Part shown: positions 13,781 through 23,368 of the stretch, in pieces
Layout of the letters: each line of letters opens with the position of its first letter
Position numbering within the stretch: position 1 is the stretch's first letter
Assembly: GCA_002839375.1 (NCBI GenBank)
Contig: PGXY01000004.1
Location: forward strand, 441,864-505,863
From: Spirochaetae bacterium HGW-Spirochaetae-1
GTDB taxonomy: Bacteria; Spirochaetota; UBA4802; UBA5550
Direction: 5' to 3'
DNA: 64,000 nt
Notes under the pieces: generated by a model
Seen by the model: only the letters and a program-made list of their open reading frames with translations
The model's database searches: none
Told to the model about the DNA's origin: nothing
Position numbers and translations under genes: made by a program

Positions 13781-14965
13781 ATGAAGAATAAGACAATGGA
13801 CGGCAAATACAAAAGGGATGAAAAAACAGACATTTTAAACAGGCCGGGATCGGGTCTTACCACGAGAAGGGATTTCCTTCTTTCAGCTGCCAGCGGTGCT
13901 GCGGCCATTTATTTTTCATCATGCGCAGACAGTAATCAATCTAACAAAGACTCAATACCTGTTAACCGTGTTGTGCGCGTAATCGATTCTGACGCAACCT
14001 CGTGGAACGGGGTAAATCCTGATGATTTTTATCAATATACAGACCAGGATGCCGTTGATGCCATGGTAGGGCGTGGCGTAAGGGAGCTTGCCGGGAAAAG
14101 CACGGATGAAGAAGCATGGCGCTCACTTGTACCGTATAACAACGGCGAAATGGTGATGATTCATCTTAACGCATACAACAACAATGACAACAGCAGAAAA
14201 AATAATGTCGCCGCTCCCATCAGCGCAGTAATATACGGACTGGTTGACCTTCTGGGAATTCCTGCGTCGAATATTGTAATTTCAGATCCGTCGCGAACAC
14301 TAGCCGAATCACCAGCAGAGGACCGTATTATCAATGTATGCCGGCATAAGAGTTCCATCTCATGGGATTTGTACCAGGGAGAATACGGATCCGACATTAC
14401 CTTTACTTCCGGTCATGAGCCTTCAAGCGCAGAAAAAATCGCCCGTGCAATAGATGAGGCTGACCATATTATCCTGATGCCGGTACTCAGCTGGCACAGT
14501 TCTGGTATGAGCACAGGAGCCATGAAAATGATGATCGGTTCTCTGGACCATATGTTGGCTATGCATGATTGCGGACCCGGAGATTGGCGCAATAGCGCCG
14601 GCCTGGCCGATATCTGCATGCCTATAAAAGAGAAGCTCAGGCTTATTGTAGCAGATGGACTGTTTGGAAATATAAATGGCAACACCTCTTCTCCCCACGC
14701 ATTCATTACCCTGGGAGGCGCCAGCGGAACAGGCCCCTCCAGCACACTGTACTTATCCAAAGACATTGTAGCCCTGGACTCAGTGATGTATGACGATCTA
14801 CTGGATGAAGCGACAGCACAGGGTTCCCCTAAAAGCGGTTATCTCTACGGGTATTTAAAATTTGCTGCTGACTCTGATCATAATCTGGGCACTTTTGAAA
14901 TGCGTGACGAAACCGACGCAACTGCATACAGCAAGATCAACCTTGTGAAAGTGAATTTGACTTAA
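13781..14965 (+). CDS. DUF362 protein with Tat signal
   Basis: 394 aa, with start preceded by GAGGGGG. A twin-arginine signal TTRRDFLLSA (RR at 29-30) is followed by a hydrophobic stretch and SSC (Cys48), which could also be a lipobox. The body matches DUF362 (PF04015): MVMIHLNAYNN, a proposed fold core near residue 130, and DHIILMPVLSWHSSGMSTGAMKMMIGS around 225-250. DUF362 proteins are iron-sulfur or redox associated in several families, but no CxxC cluster motif is seen here. It is probably exported folded by Tat, with a cofactor. The gene stands alone. Confidence 0.7.
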   Translation: MKNKTMDGKYKRDEKTDILNRPGSGLTTRRDFLLSAASGAAAIYFSSCADSNQSNKDSIPVNRVVRVIDSDATSWNGVNPDDFYQYTDQDAVDAMVGRGVRELAGKSTDEEAWRSLVPYNNGEMVMIHLNAYNNNDNSRKNNVAAPISAVIYGLVDLLGIPASNIVISDPSRTLAESPAEDRIINVCRHKSSISWDLYQGEYGSDITFTSGHEPSSAEKIARAIDEADHIILMPVLSWHSSGMSTGAMKMMIGSLDHMLAMHDCGPGDWRNSAGLADICMPIKEKLRLIVADGLFGNINGNTSSPHAFITLGGASGTGPSSTLYLSKDIVALDSVMYDDLLDEATAQGSPKSGYLYGYLKFAADSDHNLGTFEMRDETDATAYSKINLVKVNLT

Positions 14966-17521: not shown

Positions 17522-17638
17522 TATAAAATAGGGGCTGTCCCATTTTCAATAAGTGCTTTGGCCTATGGACTGTGCGCTCATTCCATGGTTATACTTTTCT
17601 TATCATCAGTATGTTATCACATGTGACACCGGGCTGAC

Positions 17639-20600
17639 ATGAATGAATTAAATCACATGCACCCACCTGATCTTCAGGCTCTGTACCTACCAGTGGGGGA
17701 CAGGTATGGAGCCGTGAAAAAGGTGGAGAATCTCATCTTTGAACTTGAACATACGAACATTGACTGGAAGTATGTCATCGCCGAGTTCCGGTCCTACCTG
17801 TATGACTTCCTTTACGATAGTATCCCCTATGCCCACGATGTTTTGAATATCATTTTTCATTATCTTATTGAAGCCGTGGCACGCAGGAAGGTGTCGGCTC
17901 TCCGCGCCAGTGATACTTTTTTTGACCGTTATATCTTTGTGGTTAAGCAGGTGATTGACGGGAAAGATGAATTTATCCCCGTAAAGGAAATTTTTGATGC
18001 CAATGCCTCGTCATTTCTCGATATAATGATGCAGGAGAGTGAAGAGGGTTTTTATTTCAAGGCCATAAACAACAGGGTAAAGAACCTGGGCAGCTTGCTT
18101 ATCACCGCGGGAGACCGGGATGGTGATATTACAGGCATTATAGGTAAATTTTTGTTCCTCCAGTATCGCCTGTATGTAAACAGTTCCATAAAGACCAATG
18201 ACTCCGAGATACAAACATTGATATCATACATCGACGACGAGATTGTGCAGGATGAACTTGTTCATATGTTCGATATCGTGTCAGAGACCACCTATGACGG
18301 GAATCTCCGCCAGATTGAACGGGTCCTATCGGAAGCACCGGCTGATCTGCTTGTTCAACACCATATATTGATGGATTTCTCACATAATGCCAGAACATGG
18401 GAGAAGATATGTCTCCGCATACGACGTATGATAGAAGAGGGGACACTGGTCCGGGATAATTCCATACTTCCCCTTCTCTCCTATTTGATAAAGAAGTCCC
18501 ATGAAGGGAATGACGGTGAACTGCAGCTGTTTATATCGAGGACGGTGGCATCGGCATGCACCGTGTTTGTAGCGAGGAGAAATCATGACCTCCTTAAGAA
18601 CATAATCGACCTGGTGATGCCCATACTCCTTTCAGAGATCGAGCGGGATGGGAATTATAATTCGGCCTTTTCCACCATCTACAATATCGGGAAAACAATC
18701 ATAGAGTCGGGGAACATCTCTCTCATCGATTACTTCAATGACATACTTGTAGCTTCCCGTTTCTGTTTTCCCGAGTTCTCCGGTGTCGCCTCAGACTGGT
18801 CAGTGATCGTCAATGCCAGCCACCTGGAAAATATCAGAACATGGATGAAACTCATCGAGCTGAATCCGCCGGTTATGAAAAAACTTGCAGCCAGTCTTAT
18901 AGTCAACATGAAGCTCGGCGGCGTGTACCTGAAAGACACCGATGTTTTCCAGAGGGACATCTCGGAACTTCTGAACAGCGATCTTGGTGAGGTGTTTTAT
19001 CTTATCACGTCCCTGGCCGCGGTATTTCCGGCTTTCTACCATGATATCGGCGCCACGGGAGACATTCGTTCCTTCACGGAAAAAATTGATACCAATCACC
19101 GCATGAACGATCTCATCCATTTCCTGAGGAAGCAGGTGCATGTTGAATCATCAAGCAGGACCGTCACCCTTTTCCAGAATGTTATGGAATACTGGATGAG
19201 CGGAGAAAAAGAAATCCTGTTGAATATGATCCCCGGCGAGGTATACGAAAATATCGACGGTTTTTTCAGGATGATCAACATGGCCGACGAGAAGGCCGCC
19301 CAAATAATTTTCCAGAAGCTCAAAAAGAATTTTTCCCAGTATGATCATCTTCATTTTTGGGATATTCTGGAGGCCGTGGGAAAGGAATACTTCAATACAT
19401 TCGTCACGGAAAACGATTTTGAAGATGTCGGCAACGGAGAAAAGACCGTGGTGCTTGATTACTGCAACCGGTATTTTGATTCGAGAAACCCAACGGAAAT
19501 GACCAGCATGCTTCACTATATTTCCGGCATGGCGGGCCTCGATGAGTCGAAAATATCCATATGGAAAATGCTCTATGAAATTTCCGATGATGATTTCCGC
19601 AAACTTTTCAATGTGGTGAGCCAGTGCAATATTTCCAAGGTGAACATCGAGAAATTCATCACCTTTCTTCATGTCTACCGCATGCTCGTTGATAAATACA
19701 ATTTCTCCGATATCCGGGGGATTGATAAACTTATGAAATATGCCTCGGAGGGCCTCTTTGATCCACCCAGGGATTTTTTTGATATATTACAGGGAGAGAA
19801 TACCATAGAGGCCCTGGATGAACTTTTAAAGGTGCAGCATGAGCTGAAGGAATCGGTGCTTCTCAGCAGCAGGCGGTTCGAGGCCCTGGACACCATTGAA
19901 TTCAAACGGCACATCGCCTTTGGCATTCCGTCCATGTACGGTTCCTATAAGGAGAAAAAATTTGATACGCTGAAGGTTTTTTTCCAGATGAACCTGGTCC
20001 GTTTTTCTTTCTTTGAAAAAATAGTAGAGGATTTTTTCAGTGATGCCCTCGTGGTCCCCGATTACAAACGGATGAAAACAGTCATGCAGCTGTTTATCCG
20101 CGCCTTTCTGGTCGATGGACTTGTCAACCAGGAGATGATTACCGTGGCGAACCTGCTGGAAACGCCCAATATGAAAACCTCCCAGTTTCGTGATGTGGTG
20201 AATTACCTCATCACCATCCATGGTGAAATATCGGATCGTTTCAACGAAACGTTCAAAGATGTATGCCGGGCAGCAGTGCATACCATCGGCGTCGATAATA
20301 TTTCCCGGCGTTTTATCCCCAATGGCAAACCGCAGAATATCGACACTGTTGTGGACAGGCTGCTCCGTGACCAGATCATGCAGTCCCCCCACCTGCAGCT
20401 CTTTGATAATTTTCTTATCTCCATGCGTGATTGTATTATCTATGATCTTGAAGAGCACGGGGACCTGGTGTGCGTCAACAGCGACACGGGGAAACGGTTC
20501 CGGGGAAATGTGGCTTTCGCAATCGGGAAAACAGAGGCCTTCCCGGGGCAGGGGAAGATATACGCCCCGATCTGGCAGGTGGGAAATAAGGCCCATGGCC

Positions 20601-22048
20601 TGCTCTTTGCGGCAAACATGGAGGGAGTCAATGTTCCTCCCGGTTTTATCATTTCCTCCGGTCTATACAAGAGACTTAAGGACGGGAACCTGAAAAATCC
20701 CCGTTTTAAAAGAAAGATACTACATGTTCTGAAAAAAAATATCGACCTGTATACGGGCGGCCGTTACGCCAACAAGCGGAATCCCGTTCTGCTTTCTGTT
20801 CGCAGCGGCGCCGTCTTTTCCATGCCCGGTGTTATGGATACCATAACCAATGTGGGAATAACCCAGGAAATCCTGGATCAGTATGCCCGCCATGATAAAT
20901 GGTTCGCCTATGACTGTTTTCGCCGGCTTATCCAGGACCTGGCCATATCCTCCTTTGGCATGGAAAGAAGCATTTTCGAGAGCCTCATGAATGAGGCAAA
21001 AGAGGAAGCAGGCGTTGCTCTCAAGGAGATGCTTACGGGAAAACAGATGGAGGCTCTGACCCTTCGTTACCGCTATGCCATTAACAATTTTGGCTACTCC
21101 ATACCCAAGGACCCTTACGAACAGCTCCTCCATGCCATCATTGCCGTTTATGAATCCTGGGATTCGGAGATAGCCAGGAACTACAGGGATTATATCAATA
21201 TTTCCGGTGAGTGGGGAACCGCCGTCGTTGTTCAGCAGATGGTTTTCGGTAACTATTCGCCGTTCAACATCACAGGCGTGGTGCACAGCCAGTACCTGGG
21301 AAAGGAAAAAATCAGCCTCTTCGGTGAATACAAGACACGTGCCCAGGGTCATGACATTGTCAGCGGAGTGGCGAAGGTATTCCCCATCAGCGAAGAACAG
21401 AAAAAAATATATGAGCATAGCAGCATTTATCCTTCCATGGAAAACAAGTTCCCGGATATTTACCGGAATCTTTTTCTCCTGGTGAAACAGATCAGGGACA
21501 GCTGGGGCAATGACGTGGAGATTGAGTTCACCATGGAGAATGACCTGATCTACATACTGCAGATACGCGGAATGACCAAGCATATATTCGATGTAGAGGA
21601 ACTGGAGGAGTCTCCGGCTGATCTGCAGCACTCCCTCCTTGGACAGGGACTGGCCGCATCGGGGGGAGCCGTATCGGGCAGGGCGGTTTTTGACATGGAC
21701 CGCATAGGCATTATGCGGAACAAATATCCCGGAGAAAAAATAATCCTCATGCGTCCCGAAACGAACCCCGAGGACGTCATGGGTCTGAAAGAGTCGGATG
21801 GGATACTGACCTGCATCGGCGGCATGACCTCGCATGCCGTTCTCCAGATGCGGCGTCTTGAAAAGAGCGGTGTCAGTGATTTTAACATCATGAAGATTGA
21901 TGAGGACCGGAACATAGCCGTCGTTGACCGGGTTCTCATGGACGGGGAAAAGGTCAGGATACTGGAAGGAGACCATATTACCATTGACGGGAATACCGGG
22001 TACGTATACCTGGGGCATCATCCCACGAGAAAAAGAAACGGTCATTGA
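17639..22048 (+). CDS. Giant PPDK-like phosphotransferase lacking the PEP-binding barrel
   Basis: 1469 aa. Residues 1 to about 960 are predominantly helical with no recognised domain. From about 970 it resembles the N-terminal half of pyruvate phosphate dikinase: a GNKAHGL-type start, SVRSGAVFSMPGVMDTI near 1052, a VVVQQMVFGN strand near 1197 and EIEFTMEN-LIYILQIRG near 1302, together an ATP-grasp nucleotide site. The swivelling phosphohistidine domain follows with GGMTSHAV; its histidine is H1399. The protein stops about 70 residues later, so the C-terminal PEP/pyruvate TIM barrel is absent. A phosphoryl group could be moved from ATP to His, but the acceptor is unknown; glucan-water-dikinase- or rifampicin-phosphotransferase-like chemistry is possible. 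No clear Shine-Dalgarno precedes the ATG. The GAPDH gene follows after 69 nt. Confidence 0.75.
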   Translation: MNELNHMHPPDLQALYLPVGDRYGAVKKVENLIFELEHTNIDWKYVIAEFRSYLYDFLYDSIPYAHDVLNIIFHYLIEAVARRKVSALRASDTFFDRYIFVVKQVIDGKDEFIPVKEIFDANASSFLDIMMQESEEGFYFKAINNRVKNLGSLLITAGDRDGDITGIIGKFLFLQYRLYVNSSIKTNDSEIQTLISYIDDEIVQDELVHMFDIVSETTYDGNLRQIERVLSEAPADLLVQHHILMDFSHNARTWEKICLRIRRMIEEGTLVRDNSILPLLSYLIKKSHEGNDGELQLFISRTVASACTVFVARRNHDLLKNIIDLVMPILLSEIERDGNYNSAFSTIYNIGKTIIESGNISLIDYFNDILVASRFCFPEFSGVASDWSVIVNASHLENIRTWMKLIELNPPVMKKLAASLIVNMKLGGVYLKDTDVFQRDISELLNSDLGEVFYLITSLAAVFPAFYHDIGATGDIRSFTEKIDTNHRMNDLIHFLRKQVHVESSSRTVTLFQNVMEYWMSGEKEILLNMIPGEVYENIDGFFRMINMADEKAAQIIFQKLKKNFSQYDHLHFWDILEAVGKEYFNTFVTENDFEDVGNGEKTVVLDYCNRYFDSRNPTEMTSMLHYISGMAGLDESKISIWKMLYEISDDDFRKLFNVVSQCNISKVNIEKFITFLHVYRMLVDKYNFSDIRGIDKLMKYASEGLFDPPRDFFDILQGENTIEALDELLKVQHELKESVLLSSRRFEALDTIEFKRHIAFGIPSMYGSYKEKKFDTLKVFFQMNLVRFSFFEKIVEDFFSDALVVPDYKRMKTVMQLFIRAFLVDGLVNQEMITVANLLETPNMKTSQFRDVVNYLITIHGEISDRFNETFKDVCRAAVHTIGVDNISRRFIPNGKPQNIDTVVDRLLRDQIMQSPHLQLFDNFLISMRDCIIYDLEEHGDLVCVNSDTGKRFRGNVAFAIGKTEAFPGQGKIYAPIWQVGNKAHGLLFAANMEGVNVPPGFIISSGLYKRLKDGNLKNPRFKRKILHVLKKNIDLYTGGRYANKRNPVLLSVRSGAVFSMPGVMDTITNVGITQEILDQYARHDKWFAYDCFRRLIQDLAISSFGMERSIFESLMNEAKEEAGVALKEMLTGKQMEALTLRYRYAINNFGYSIPKDPYEQLLHAIIAVYESWDSEIARNYRDYINISGEWGTAVVVQQMVFGNYSPFNITGVVHSQYLGKEKISLFGEYKTRAQGHDIVSGVAKVFPISEEQKKIYEHSSIYPSMENKFPDIYRNLFLLVKQIRDSWGNDVEIEFTMENDLIYILQIRGMTKHIFDVEELEESPADLQHSLLGQGLAASGGAVSGRAVFDMDRIGIMRNKYPGEKIILMRPETNPEDVMGLKESDGILTCIGGMTSHAVLQMRRLEKSGVSDFNIMKIDEDRNIAVVDRVLMDGEKVRILEGDHITIDGNTGYVYLGHHPTRKRNGH

Positions 22049-22117
22049 CCATGATTATATGCGGGGACTGAGACCCTGCCATATATACGGGTAACTACGA
22101 TTTACAAGGAGAAAAAT

Positions 22118-23269
22118 ATGAGCAGCATATCCATAACATCGGCGGTGGGGGTCAACAGTATCGGCAGAATAGGGAAACTTCTGGTCTGGAGCCTGACGGC
22201 ACGCAAAGAACAGGACAGTATAGTAATTTCCACGGGACGTGAAGTGGGGAAAAGCATCGAGGACCTGGCGACCTATTTAAGCTATGACTCGACCTATGGT
22301 TCCTATTCCCGGTTTTTTTTCGGATTGCAGGGAGATGAGCGGGTAGAGATACGCGGCGGCAACCTGTACATGAACGGGGTAAAAATCATATGGCTCAATG
22401 ATGCGCCGTGCCGTGTCCCTGGCAATATCCCCTGGTCTGAGTACGGCGTGGATGTCGTTTTTGATACAACGGGTAAAATGACGGACCCTACTGCTACGGA
22501 AAATAATTCACTGCGGGGACATCTCAATCACGCGAAAAAAGTTATCCTGAGCGCTCCTTTCAAGATAAAGAACAAGGGTGCCATGCTTCCCGAGGATTCG
22601 ATCACCGTTGTGGGCGGTATTAACTTTGACAAGTATGATGAAAGTATCCATACTGTTATATCCAATGCATCGTGCACCACGAACTGTTGTGCTCCTCCCA
22701 TCAAGGCTCTGGTTGACCATTTCGGCGATAAATTCATCTCCTATTCACTCACGACGGTTCATGCTGCCACCAATTCCCAGAGTGTGCTTGATTCCCTGCC
22801 GAAGGCGGGAGACAAGGATACACGGAAAAGAAGAAGCATCATCAACAATATGATTCCCACGTCAACGGGAGCCGCCAATGCCGTCCTGGAAGTGATCCCG
22901 GAAATACGGGATCTGGGTATCGGGTCACAGGCTTCATCGATTCGTGTTCCCACCAACACTGGATCCATCGTTATTCTCGATATAACCCTCATGGGTGAAT
23001 TCGACAATGATCAAATACATGAAATTTTCCGCGAATATAGCAGGAAAAATCCCGACATCATGAAGTTCTCTACTGACCAGCTCGTGAGCGGTGATATTAT
23101 CGGCAGCCCCTGGTCAACCGTGTATGACTCTCCCTTCACGCATCGAAGGACTTCAAAAAGAAACAACCAGTTTTTCACCATGGTGGATCTGAACTTTTGG
23201 TATGATAATGAATTCGGTTATGTCTGTTCGCTCATGAGGCTCTATGATCATATGACGGGAAGGCGGTAG
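22118..23269 (+). CDS. Divergent glyceraldehyde-3-phosphate dehydrogenase
   Basis: 383 aa, about 45 longer than usual GAPDH, with a strong AAGGAG site. The catalytic block SNASCTTNC is intact (Cys186), as are TTVHAAT (His215) and IPTSTGAANAV for phosphate binding. The N-terminal dinucleotide motif is altered (GVNSIGRIGK rather than NGFGRIGR). The loop after the second strand reads STGRE where NAD-specific enzymes have an Asp, so cofactor preference may differ (inference). It lies 69 nt downstream of the dikinase-like gene and before a strong terminator, so the two form an operon. Whether it is the glycolytic enzyme of this organism or a specialised paralogue cannot be told. Confidence 0.85.
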   Translation: MSSISITSAVGVNSIGRIGKLLVWSLTARKEQDSIVISTGREVGKSIEDLATYLSYDSTYGSYSRFFFGLQGDERVEIRGGNLYMNGVKIIWLNDAPCRVPGNIPWSEYGVDVVFDTTGKMTDPTATENNSLRGHLNHAKKVILSAPFKIKNKGAMLPEDSITVVGGINFDKYDESIHTVISNASCTTNCCAPPIKALVDHFGDKFISYSLTTVHAATNSQSVLDSLPKAGDKDTRKRRSIINNMIPTSTGAANAVLEVIPEIRDLGIGSQASSIRVPTNTGSIVILDITLMGEFDNDQIHEIFREYSRKNPDIMKFSTDQLVSGDIIGSPWSTVYDSPFTHRRTSKRNNQFFTMVDLNFWYDNEFGYVCSLMRLYDHMTGRR

Positions 23270-23340: not shown

Positions 23341-23368
23341 AAAATTGGGCCGAAAGGCCCTTTTTTTT
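23341..23368 (+). terminator. Intrinsic terminator after the dikinase-GAPDH operon
   Basis: GGGCC (23347-23351), GAAA tetraloop, GGCCC (23356-23360), then eight T. Confidence 0.85.

Follow-up and report, generated by a model that had tools for sequence, protein, structure and literature searches.

The window (the whole 64,000-nucleotide stretch of DNA that was analysed) contains two adjacent genes on a common strand, which encode a long PPDK-like dikinase without a PEP/pyruvate barrel (dikinase A) and a divergent GAPDH paralogue (GAPDH2). Both reading frames have exactly the coordinates and lengths given in an earlier, sequence-only reading of this DNA, which was confirmed in each detail checked. 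The features of the locus are as follows:

17639..22048, + strand: barrel-less PPDK-like dikinase A, 1469 aa (open reading frame, domain matches, full-length orthologues)
17639..20563, + strand: residues 1-975 of dikinase A, a predicted all-helical region of no recognised family (no Pfam, PDB or Foldseek relative)
18761..19168, + strand: residues 375-510, the most conserved island of the N-terminal region (block identity, invariant charged residues)
19883..20014, + strand: residues 749-792, a second invariant island, TIEFKRHIAFGIPSMYGSYKEKKFDTL (orthologue alignments, motif search of the phylum)
20576..21583, + strand: ATP-grasp (nucleotide-binding) domain, residues ~980-1315, with K984, R1055, E1296, Q1308 and R1310 invariant (domain matches, PPDK alignment, orthologues)
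21626..22027, + strand: phosphohistidine swivel domain, residues ~1330-1463, with a GGMTSH motif (domain matches, PPDK alignment, orthologues)
21833..21835, + strand: codon of His1399, the expected phosphate carrier (alignment to the PPDK H455 motif)
22106..22111, + strand: Shine-Dalgarno-like AAGGAG ahead of the GAPDH2 gene (sequence)
22118..23269, + strand: GAPDH2, 383 aa (open reading frame, family matches; adjoins dikinase A in relatives)
22232..22240, + strand: T39-G40-R41, at or beside the NAD-specifying Asp32 position, invariant in 21 members (ND(L) in the relatives' canonical GAPDHs)
22673..22675, + strand: codon of the catalytic Cys186 (alignments)
22760..22762, + strand: codon of the catalytic His215 (alignments)
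about 23347..23368, no single strand: bidirectional terminator-like hairpin ending the two-gene unit, GGGCCGAAAGGCCC then TTTTTTTT, which matches on both strands

The two genes are separated by 69 bases, and a strong terminator-like hairpin is present only 3′ of GAPDH2, at 23347-23360, with none between the pair. The GGGCCGAAAGGCCC hairpin is perfect, with T-runs flanking both sides. No Shine-Dalgarno sequence is evident for the dikinase A start at 17639 (window positions 17600-17660), and an alternative start at 17657 is possible, given that alignable conservation begins at about residues 11-18. A Tat-signal DUF362 protein is encoded upstream of the pair (13781-14965) and is absent from the relatives' loci examined. 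A PADLOC search for a defence system had no match, and a search for RNA elements at the locus gave none.

The C-terminal part of dikinase A resembles the catalytic half of a PPDK. Pfam places PPDK_N at residues 1046-1315 (6.5e-19) and PEP-utilizers at 1366-1454 (6.1e-11), and the NCBIfam PPDK model (TIGR01828) matches from residue 982 onward (4.5e-95; 319 bits, with a cut-off of 843). Solved PPDKs align to residues ~982-1464, which make up complete nucleotide-binding and phosphohistidine domains, and the C-terminus falls where a PPDK would continue into the PEP/pyruvate barrel. The barrel has no Pfam match, and the chain stops after the His domain. Because the barrel is missing and the family score is far under the cut-off, dikinase A is, judged from its sequence, not a PPDK by membership. 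The positions equivalent to PPDK K22, R92, E323, Q335, R337 and T453-S-H455 (numbers whose roles we take to be those of the C. symbiosum enzyme) are invariant in the 25 orthologues, as is H1399 within GGMTSH, and at the equivalent of PPDK D321, 18 of them have E and 7 have Q. In all, 378 positions are invariant across the orthologues. A Foldseek search with a structure model of residues 300-1469 returned PPDKs as the best matches (up to 6.1e-21), with RPH at 1.2e-6 and HpeI at 6e-3. In a tree, the dikinase A proteins form one clade (stem 1.7) that lies outside the sampled spirochaete PPDKs, long-branch effects blurring the exact placement. The initial description of a dikinase that keeps its ATP-grasp domain and phosphohistidine and has no PEP barrel is thus borne out by the Pfam and NCBIfam matches and the invariance of H1399, and the PPDK-type ATP site and phosphohistidine of dikinase A are apparently competent.

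The remaining two thirds of the chain have no recognised relative, as had been proposed for some 960 residues: for residues 1-975 of the window protein, no Pfam family scored above its cut-off, a PDB sequence search found no relative, and Foldseek searches of the PDB and viral models gave nothing at E<=0.001 (best 8.5e-3, to generic helical solenoids). A plasmid tblastn search for a known acceptor fold was also negative, and none of the 25 dikinase A members has a Pfam match to a carbohydrate-binding module. Lacking any significant Foldseek match, the putative acceptor region would belong to no known family. The model of residues 1-975 is predicted to be all-helical, with a mean pLDDT of 74 and a pTM of 0.44. 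Two islands stand out, at ~361-510 and 749-792, which are conserved to the same degree as the catalytic domains and contain many invariant R, K, H, D and E residues; the 60-residue blocks spanning 361-540 have 69-83% mean identity to the window protein. These islands mostly overlap poorly modelled parts (confidence is low over most of 378-474), and a second model, of residues 300-1469, improved the conserved island only partly. A motif at ~736-800 was used to look for a wider family within the phylum, and found only same-order orthologues and two weak matches (E ~0.005) in stop-broken frames. Because the two islands vary no more than the catalytic domains and hold many invariant Arg, Lys and His residues, it is plausible that the N-terminal region binds the phosphate acceptor. 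The same role is suggested by the general principle of dikinases, in which the ATP site and the acceptor site are distinct and the swivel domain moves between them (PMC4844700, PMC12167813).

GAPDH2 was described at the outset as a divergent GAPDH with intact Cys186 and His215, which is correct for both residues; they are invariant among the GAPDH2 members. Aligned with 16 canonical GAPDHs, it keeps C186, H215, T218, T250, R276, N364 and Y368. The residues that bind the substrate phosphates (equivalents of T179, T/D181, T208 and R231) are T218, S220, T250 and R276, of which S220 is a conservative change. The protein shares the fold, the Cys/His pair and the substrate-phosphate residues of type I GAPDHs, including the NADP-dependent GapB type, but differs from them in forming a monophyletic clade on a very long stem, in its inserts (about six, with ~40 extra residues, some positions invariant), in its sub-cut-off score (295 bits against 367 for TIGR01534) and in having a dikinase as partner. 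The stem of this clade measures 2.7 changes/site and is followed by slow evolution, with long-branch effects again blurring its exact placement. A structure labelled GAPDH 2 (8wwz) is the second best solved match. A further GAPDH clade on a long branch, separate from both the canonical and the paired GAPDHs, was seen in some genomes of the order (L116, L117, L118).

In ordinary GAPDHs, Asp32 contacts the 2′-hydroxyl of the NAD ribose (PMC3728087). In GAPDH2, the Asn-Asp at this position is replaced by TGR, although the alignment shifts by 1-2 residues between methods and E42 of the window protein could act as the Asp. The invariant TGR at or beside Asp32 suggests that GAPDH2 may prefer NADP(H). 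NADP(H)-dependent GAPDHs are marked by the loss of Asp32, as in the GapB type, and by a basic residue for the 2′-phosphate; the apparent loss of Asp32 in GAPDH2 would be comparable.

Dikinase A and GAPDH2 are strictly coupled, both physically and genomically. Among the order's 46 genomes, 26 have dikinase A, whole or as fragments, and 25 have the paired GAPDH; the mismatches are all in fragmented assemblies (only dikinase pieces in G043 and G045; only the GAPDH in G036, which has 730 contigs). Complete genomes without one gene are also without the other, and presence and absence go together over 59 relatives. Conservation of the pair in relatives had been named as a check on the sequence-only reading, and wherever both genes were seen they are adjacent, in constant order and strand (24/24 genomes). 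The flanking genes are almost wholly different among the 18 loci compared, and a larger conserved operon was rejected, only the pair itself being constant. Identities across many genera are 55-62% for the dikinase and 70-75% for the GAPDH, which argues that the pair is not there by chance. The pairwise distances among the dikinases are correlated with those among the paired GAPDHs (0.85-0.92, uncorrected for kinship), as expected for joint vertical inheritance. Neither of the two observations that were to speak against the sequence-only reading was made, since no known PEP- or glucan-binding fold was found for residues 1-960 and the pairing is conserved. That the two genes are coupled and the dikinase is active is, as a joint claim from these sequences, well supported and very probably right.

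When 393 genomes of the phylum were searched with a profile of residues 1-975, 26 had a match, and these all belong to one order (families f1, f2, f4, f5 and f7); in a pattern search of the genomes of 84,980 species, which reaches close relatives only, the confirmed matches were Spirochaetota or MAG records. As far as searched, the pair is restricted to five families of one uncultured Spirochaetota order. The long stems in both families are what one would expect of two decaying paralogues that are neighbours by chance; this explanation is highly improbable in view of the 378 invariant dikinase positions and of an adjacency that persists across five families of the order despite changing neighbours.

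The pair coexists with the ordinary enzymes of glycolysis. The host genome encodes an ordinary PPDK (a 947-aa frame, ~69 kb upstream of the window start), a second PPDK/PEP-synthase-like protein (an 875-aa frame), an ordinary GAPDH followed by an apparent triose-phosphate isomerase gene, and a PGK. Each of the 14 pair-bearing genomes checked by family has a canonical GAPDH gene and at least one more member of the GAPDH family. The idea that the pair substitutes for an absent canonical PGK or GAPDH was therefore rejected, both being present, and the ordinary PPDK, GAPDH and PGK mark the pair as an extra module.

A second clue comes from relatives without dikinase A. Seven of these (G001, G005, G009, G010, G014, G016 and G039) carry the gene of a different PPDK-like protein without a barrel, dikinase B, of ~1006 aa, with an N-terminal part of ~450 residues in which homology to that of dikinase A was sought and none was detectable. 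A PGK family search found a second, divergent PGK (PGK2) in exactly these seven genomes, and when 326 genomes of the phylum were searched with a separate profile for each protein, dikinase B and PGK2 were each found in those seven only; G036 also has an extra PGK, which is distinct from PGK2. The genes are located as follows, with (-) for the reverse strand:

Dikinase B: L073:643-3660, L074:543-3560, L076:676-3684, L077:676-3681; also in G005, G016 and G039
PGK2: L092:4482-5780(-), L093:536-1822(-), L094:4303-5589, L095:4860-6152, L096:4884-6188(-), L097:4633-5943
LysE-like genes after dikinase B: L073:3774-4469, L074:3694-4392, L075:1324-2076(-), L076:3782-4489, L077:3796-4482

The PGK2 gene does not adjoin that of dikinase B. 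Most catalytic residues are retained in PGK2, with Gln for the Arg of the canonical AHR(G/A)HAS motif. In a tree of canonical PGKs, the dikinase B genomes are at two places (a six-genome clade in family f1, and G039 in f4), so that there are about two independent co-occurrences of dikinase B and PGK2 rather than seven. Dikinases A and B never occur in one genome (hypergeometric 0.0009, a simple test uncorrected for kinship). Several smaller features of these loci were seen. A small conserved membrane protein, LysE-like by eye, is encoded directly 3′ of dikinase B in the five loci seen. In G005:C183 (L075), dikinase B is broken into two frames that overlap (173 + 817 aa), by either a true frameshift or an assembly error. 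PGK2 adjoins an ArsR-like regulator and an apparent S-adenosylhomocysteine hydrolase (by eye) in four of six loci.

The co-occurrence of dikinase B with PGK2 suggests chemistry of 1,3-bisphosphoglycerate or a similar acyl phosphate. 1,3-Bisphosphoglycerate is the compound on which GAPDH and PGK, the two partner enzymes, both act, and we consider this to be the main functional clue. The coupling of a kinase with a reductase of the GAPDH fold is a standard route of carboxylate reduction (PGK/GAPDH, aspartokinase/ASADH). In the mechanism that we tentatively favour, dikinase A would make an acyl phosphate that GAPDH2 reduces with NADPH. Dikinase A would split ATP to AMP, carrying the phosphate on His1399, and phospho-His1399 would pass it on to an acceptor bound in the helical N-terminal region, most likely a carboxylate such as 3-phosphoglycerate or a similar compound. 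The product would be an acyl phosphate like 1,3-bisphosphoglycerate, which GAPDH2, probably using NADPH, would reduce to an aldehyde; overall, the pair would correspond to PGK plus GAPDH working in one direction only and forming AMP. This mechanism is favoured by the invariant ATP-site residues and T1397-S-H1399 of the dikinase, by the intact catalytic residues of GAPDH2, by the constant adjacency and co-presence of the pair, and by PGK2 in the dikinase B genomes. The last of these also counts against a simple replacement of PGK, which would be redundant, and for this reason our confidence in the mechanism is low. Further points against it are the presence of canonical GAPDH, PGK and PPDK, the E or Q at the D321 position, the ambiguous alignment of TGR, and an N-terminal model that is weakest exactly in the conserved island.

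The sequences point to a phosphate-transfer step, hitherto undescribed, that would convert ATP to AMP and be connected with the chemistry of triose phosphates. If true, the dikinases with a swivelling phosphohistidine would gain a new acceptor domain and a tie to the 1,3-bisphosphoglycerate of glycolysis, and ~960 otherwise unplaceable residues, with islands as invariant as the catalytic core, would have a concrete and testable function. Depending on direction, the pair would be an irreversible, AMP-forming alternative to PGK/GAPDH or an ATP-making, pyrophosphate-linked one. A broader and fairly doubtful proposal is that of a new carboxylate-reducing (or triose-phosphate-linked) energy module, in which a dikinase with an all-helical acceptor domain would replace PGK before a dedicated GAPDH, and sister lineages would pair another barrel-less dikinase with a dedicated, modified PGK.

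The flow might also run in reverse: GAPDH2 would make 1,3-bisphosphoglycerate or an analogue, His1399 would take the acyl phosphate, and ATP would be formed from AMP and PPi, the pair standing in for PGK with a link to pyrophosphate. In favour of this, the catalytic part resembles PPDK, a reversible enzyme, rather than PEP synthase; in addition, GAPDH and PGK, the respective partners of dikinases A and B, can both supply 1,3-bisphosphoglycerate. We nevertheless consider this direction unlikely, as canonical PGK and PPDK are present and a possible NADP(H) preference suits reduction better than glycolytic oxidation. Somewhat unlikely is a regulatory or scaffold unit, in which the dikinase would phosphorylate a macromolecule (possibly GAPDH2), with the helical region as docking platform and GAPDH2 as a sensor of triose phosphate or redox state. 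The ~960 all-helical residues are possibly solenoid-like (Foldseek gave generic solenoids, none of them significant), and the extra, partly invariant loops of GAPDH2 could be docking surfaces. However, the catalytic residues of GAPDH2 are fully kept under strong constraint, and the invariant motifs of the N-terminal islands resemble a binding site more than a variable platform.

The catalytic half of dikinase A is of a known kind, and its N-terminal half, its architecture and its partnership with a GAPDH were not found described in the open-access literature searched. The original remark that no phosphotransfer-GAPDH pairing had been described agrees with this literature, which is an incomplete sample. 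The closest relatives are the PPDKs (TIGR01828; 1kbl, 1dik, 5jvl), which share the order of ATP-grasp and swivel domains, the ATP-site residues and the TSH motif; dikinase A differs in having no barrel, ~975 extra N-terminal residues and a GAPDH partner. Glucan and phosphoglucan water dikinases likewise have PPDK-like catalytic domains and a big N-terminal part for the substrate. GWD differs in carrying carbohydrate-binding modules, none of which was found in dikinase A, and in having its His domain ahead of the ATP-grasp domain. Rifampin phosphotransferase and related small-molecule dikinases (PMC4844700) are similar in having a C-terminal His domain and a non-barrel acceptor part, but RPH has the order ATP-grasp, acceptor domain, His (PMC4844700), whereas in dikinase A the N-terminal region comes first, followed by the PPDK-like catalytic part. 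Dikinases of this type swap acceptor domains freely (PMC4844700, PMC12167813), and dikinase A might be one of them, of the rifampin-phosphotransferase or HpeHI type, acting on an unrelated substrate, with GAPDH2 catalysing a separate step of a common pathway. This is decidedly unlikely, given a PPDK-like catalytic part to which RPH is a far weaker match (1.2e-6 vs 6e-21) and the lack of other pathway genes conserved beside the pair. HpeHI, CreHI and PpsAB (PMC12167813) resemble the pair in their phosphohistidine relay and in being two-gene dikinase units. In those systems the ATP-grasp domain and the His/acceptor part are on different proteins, whereas here one chain carries the ATP-grasp and His domains, and the second gene encodes a GAPDH.
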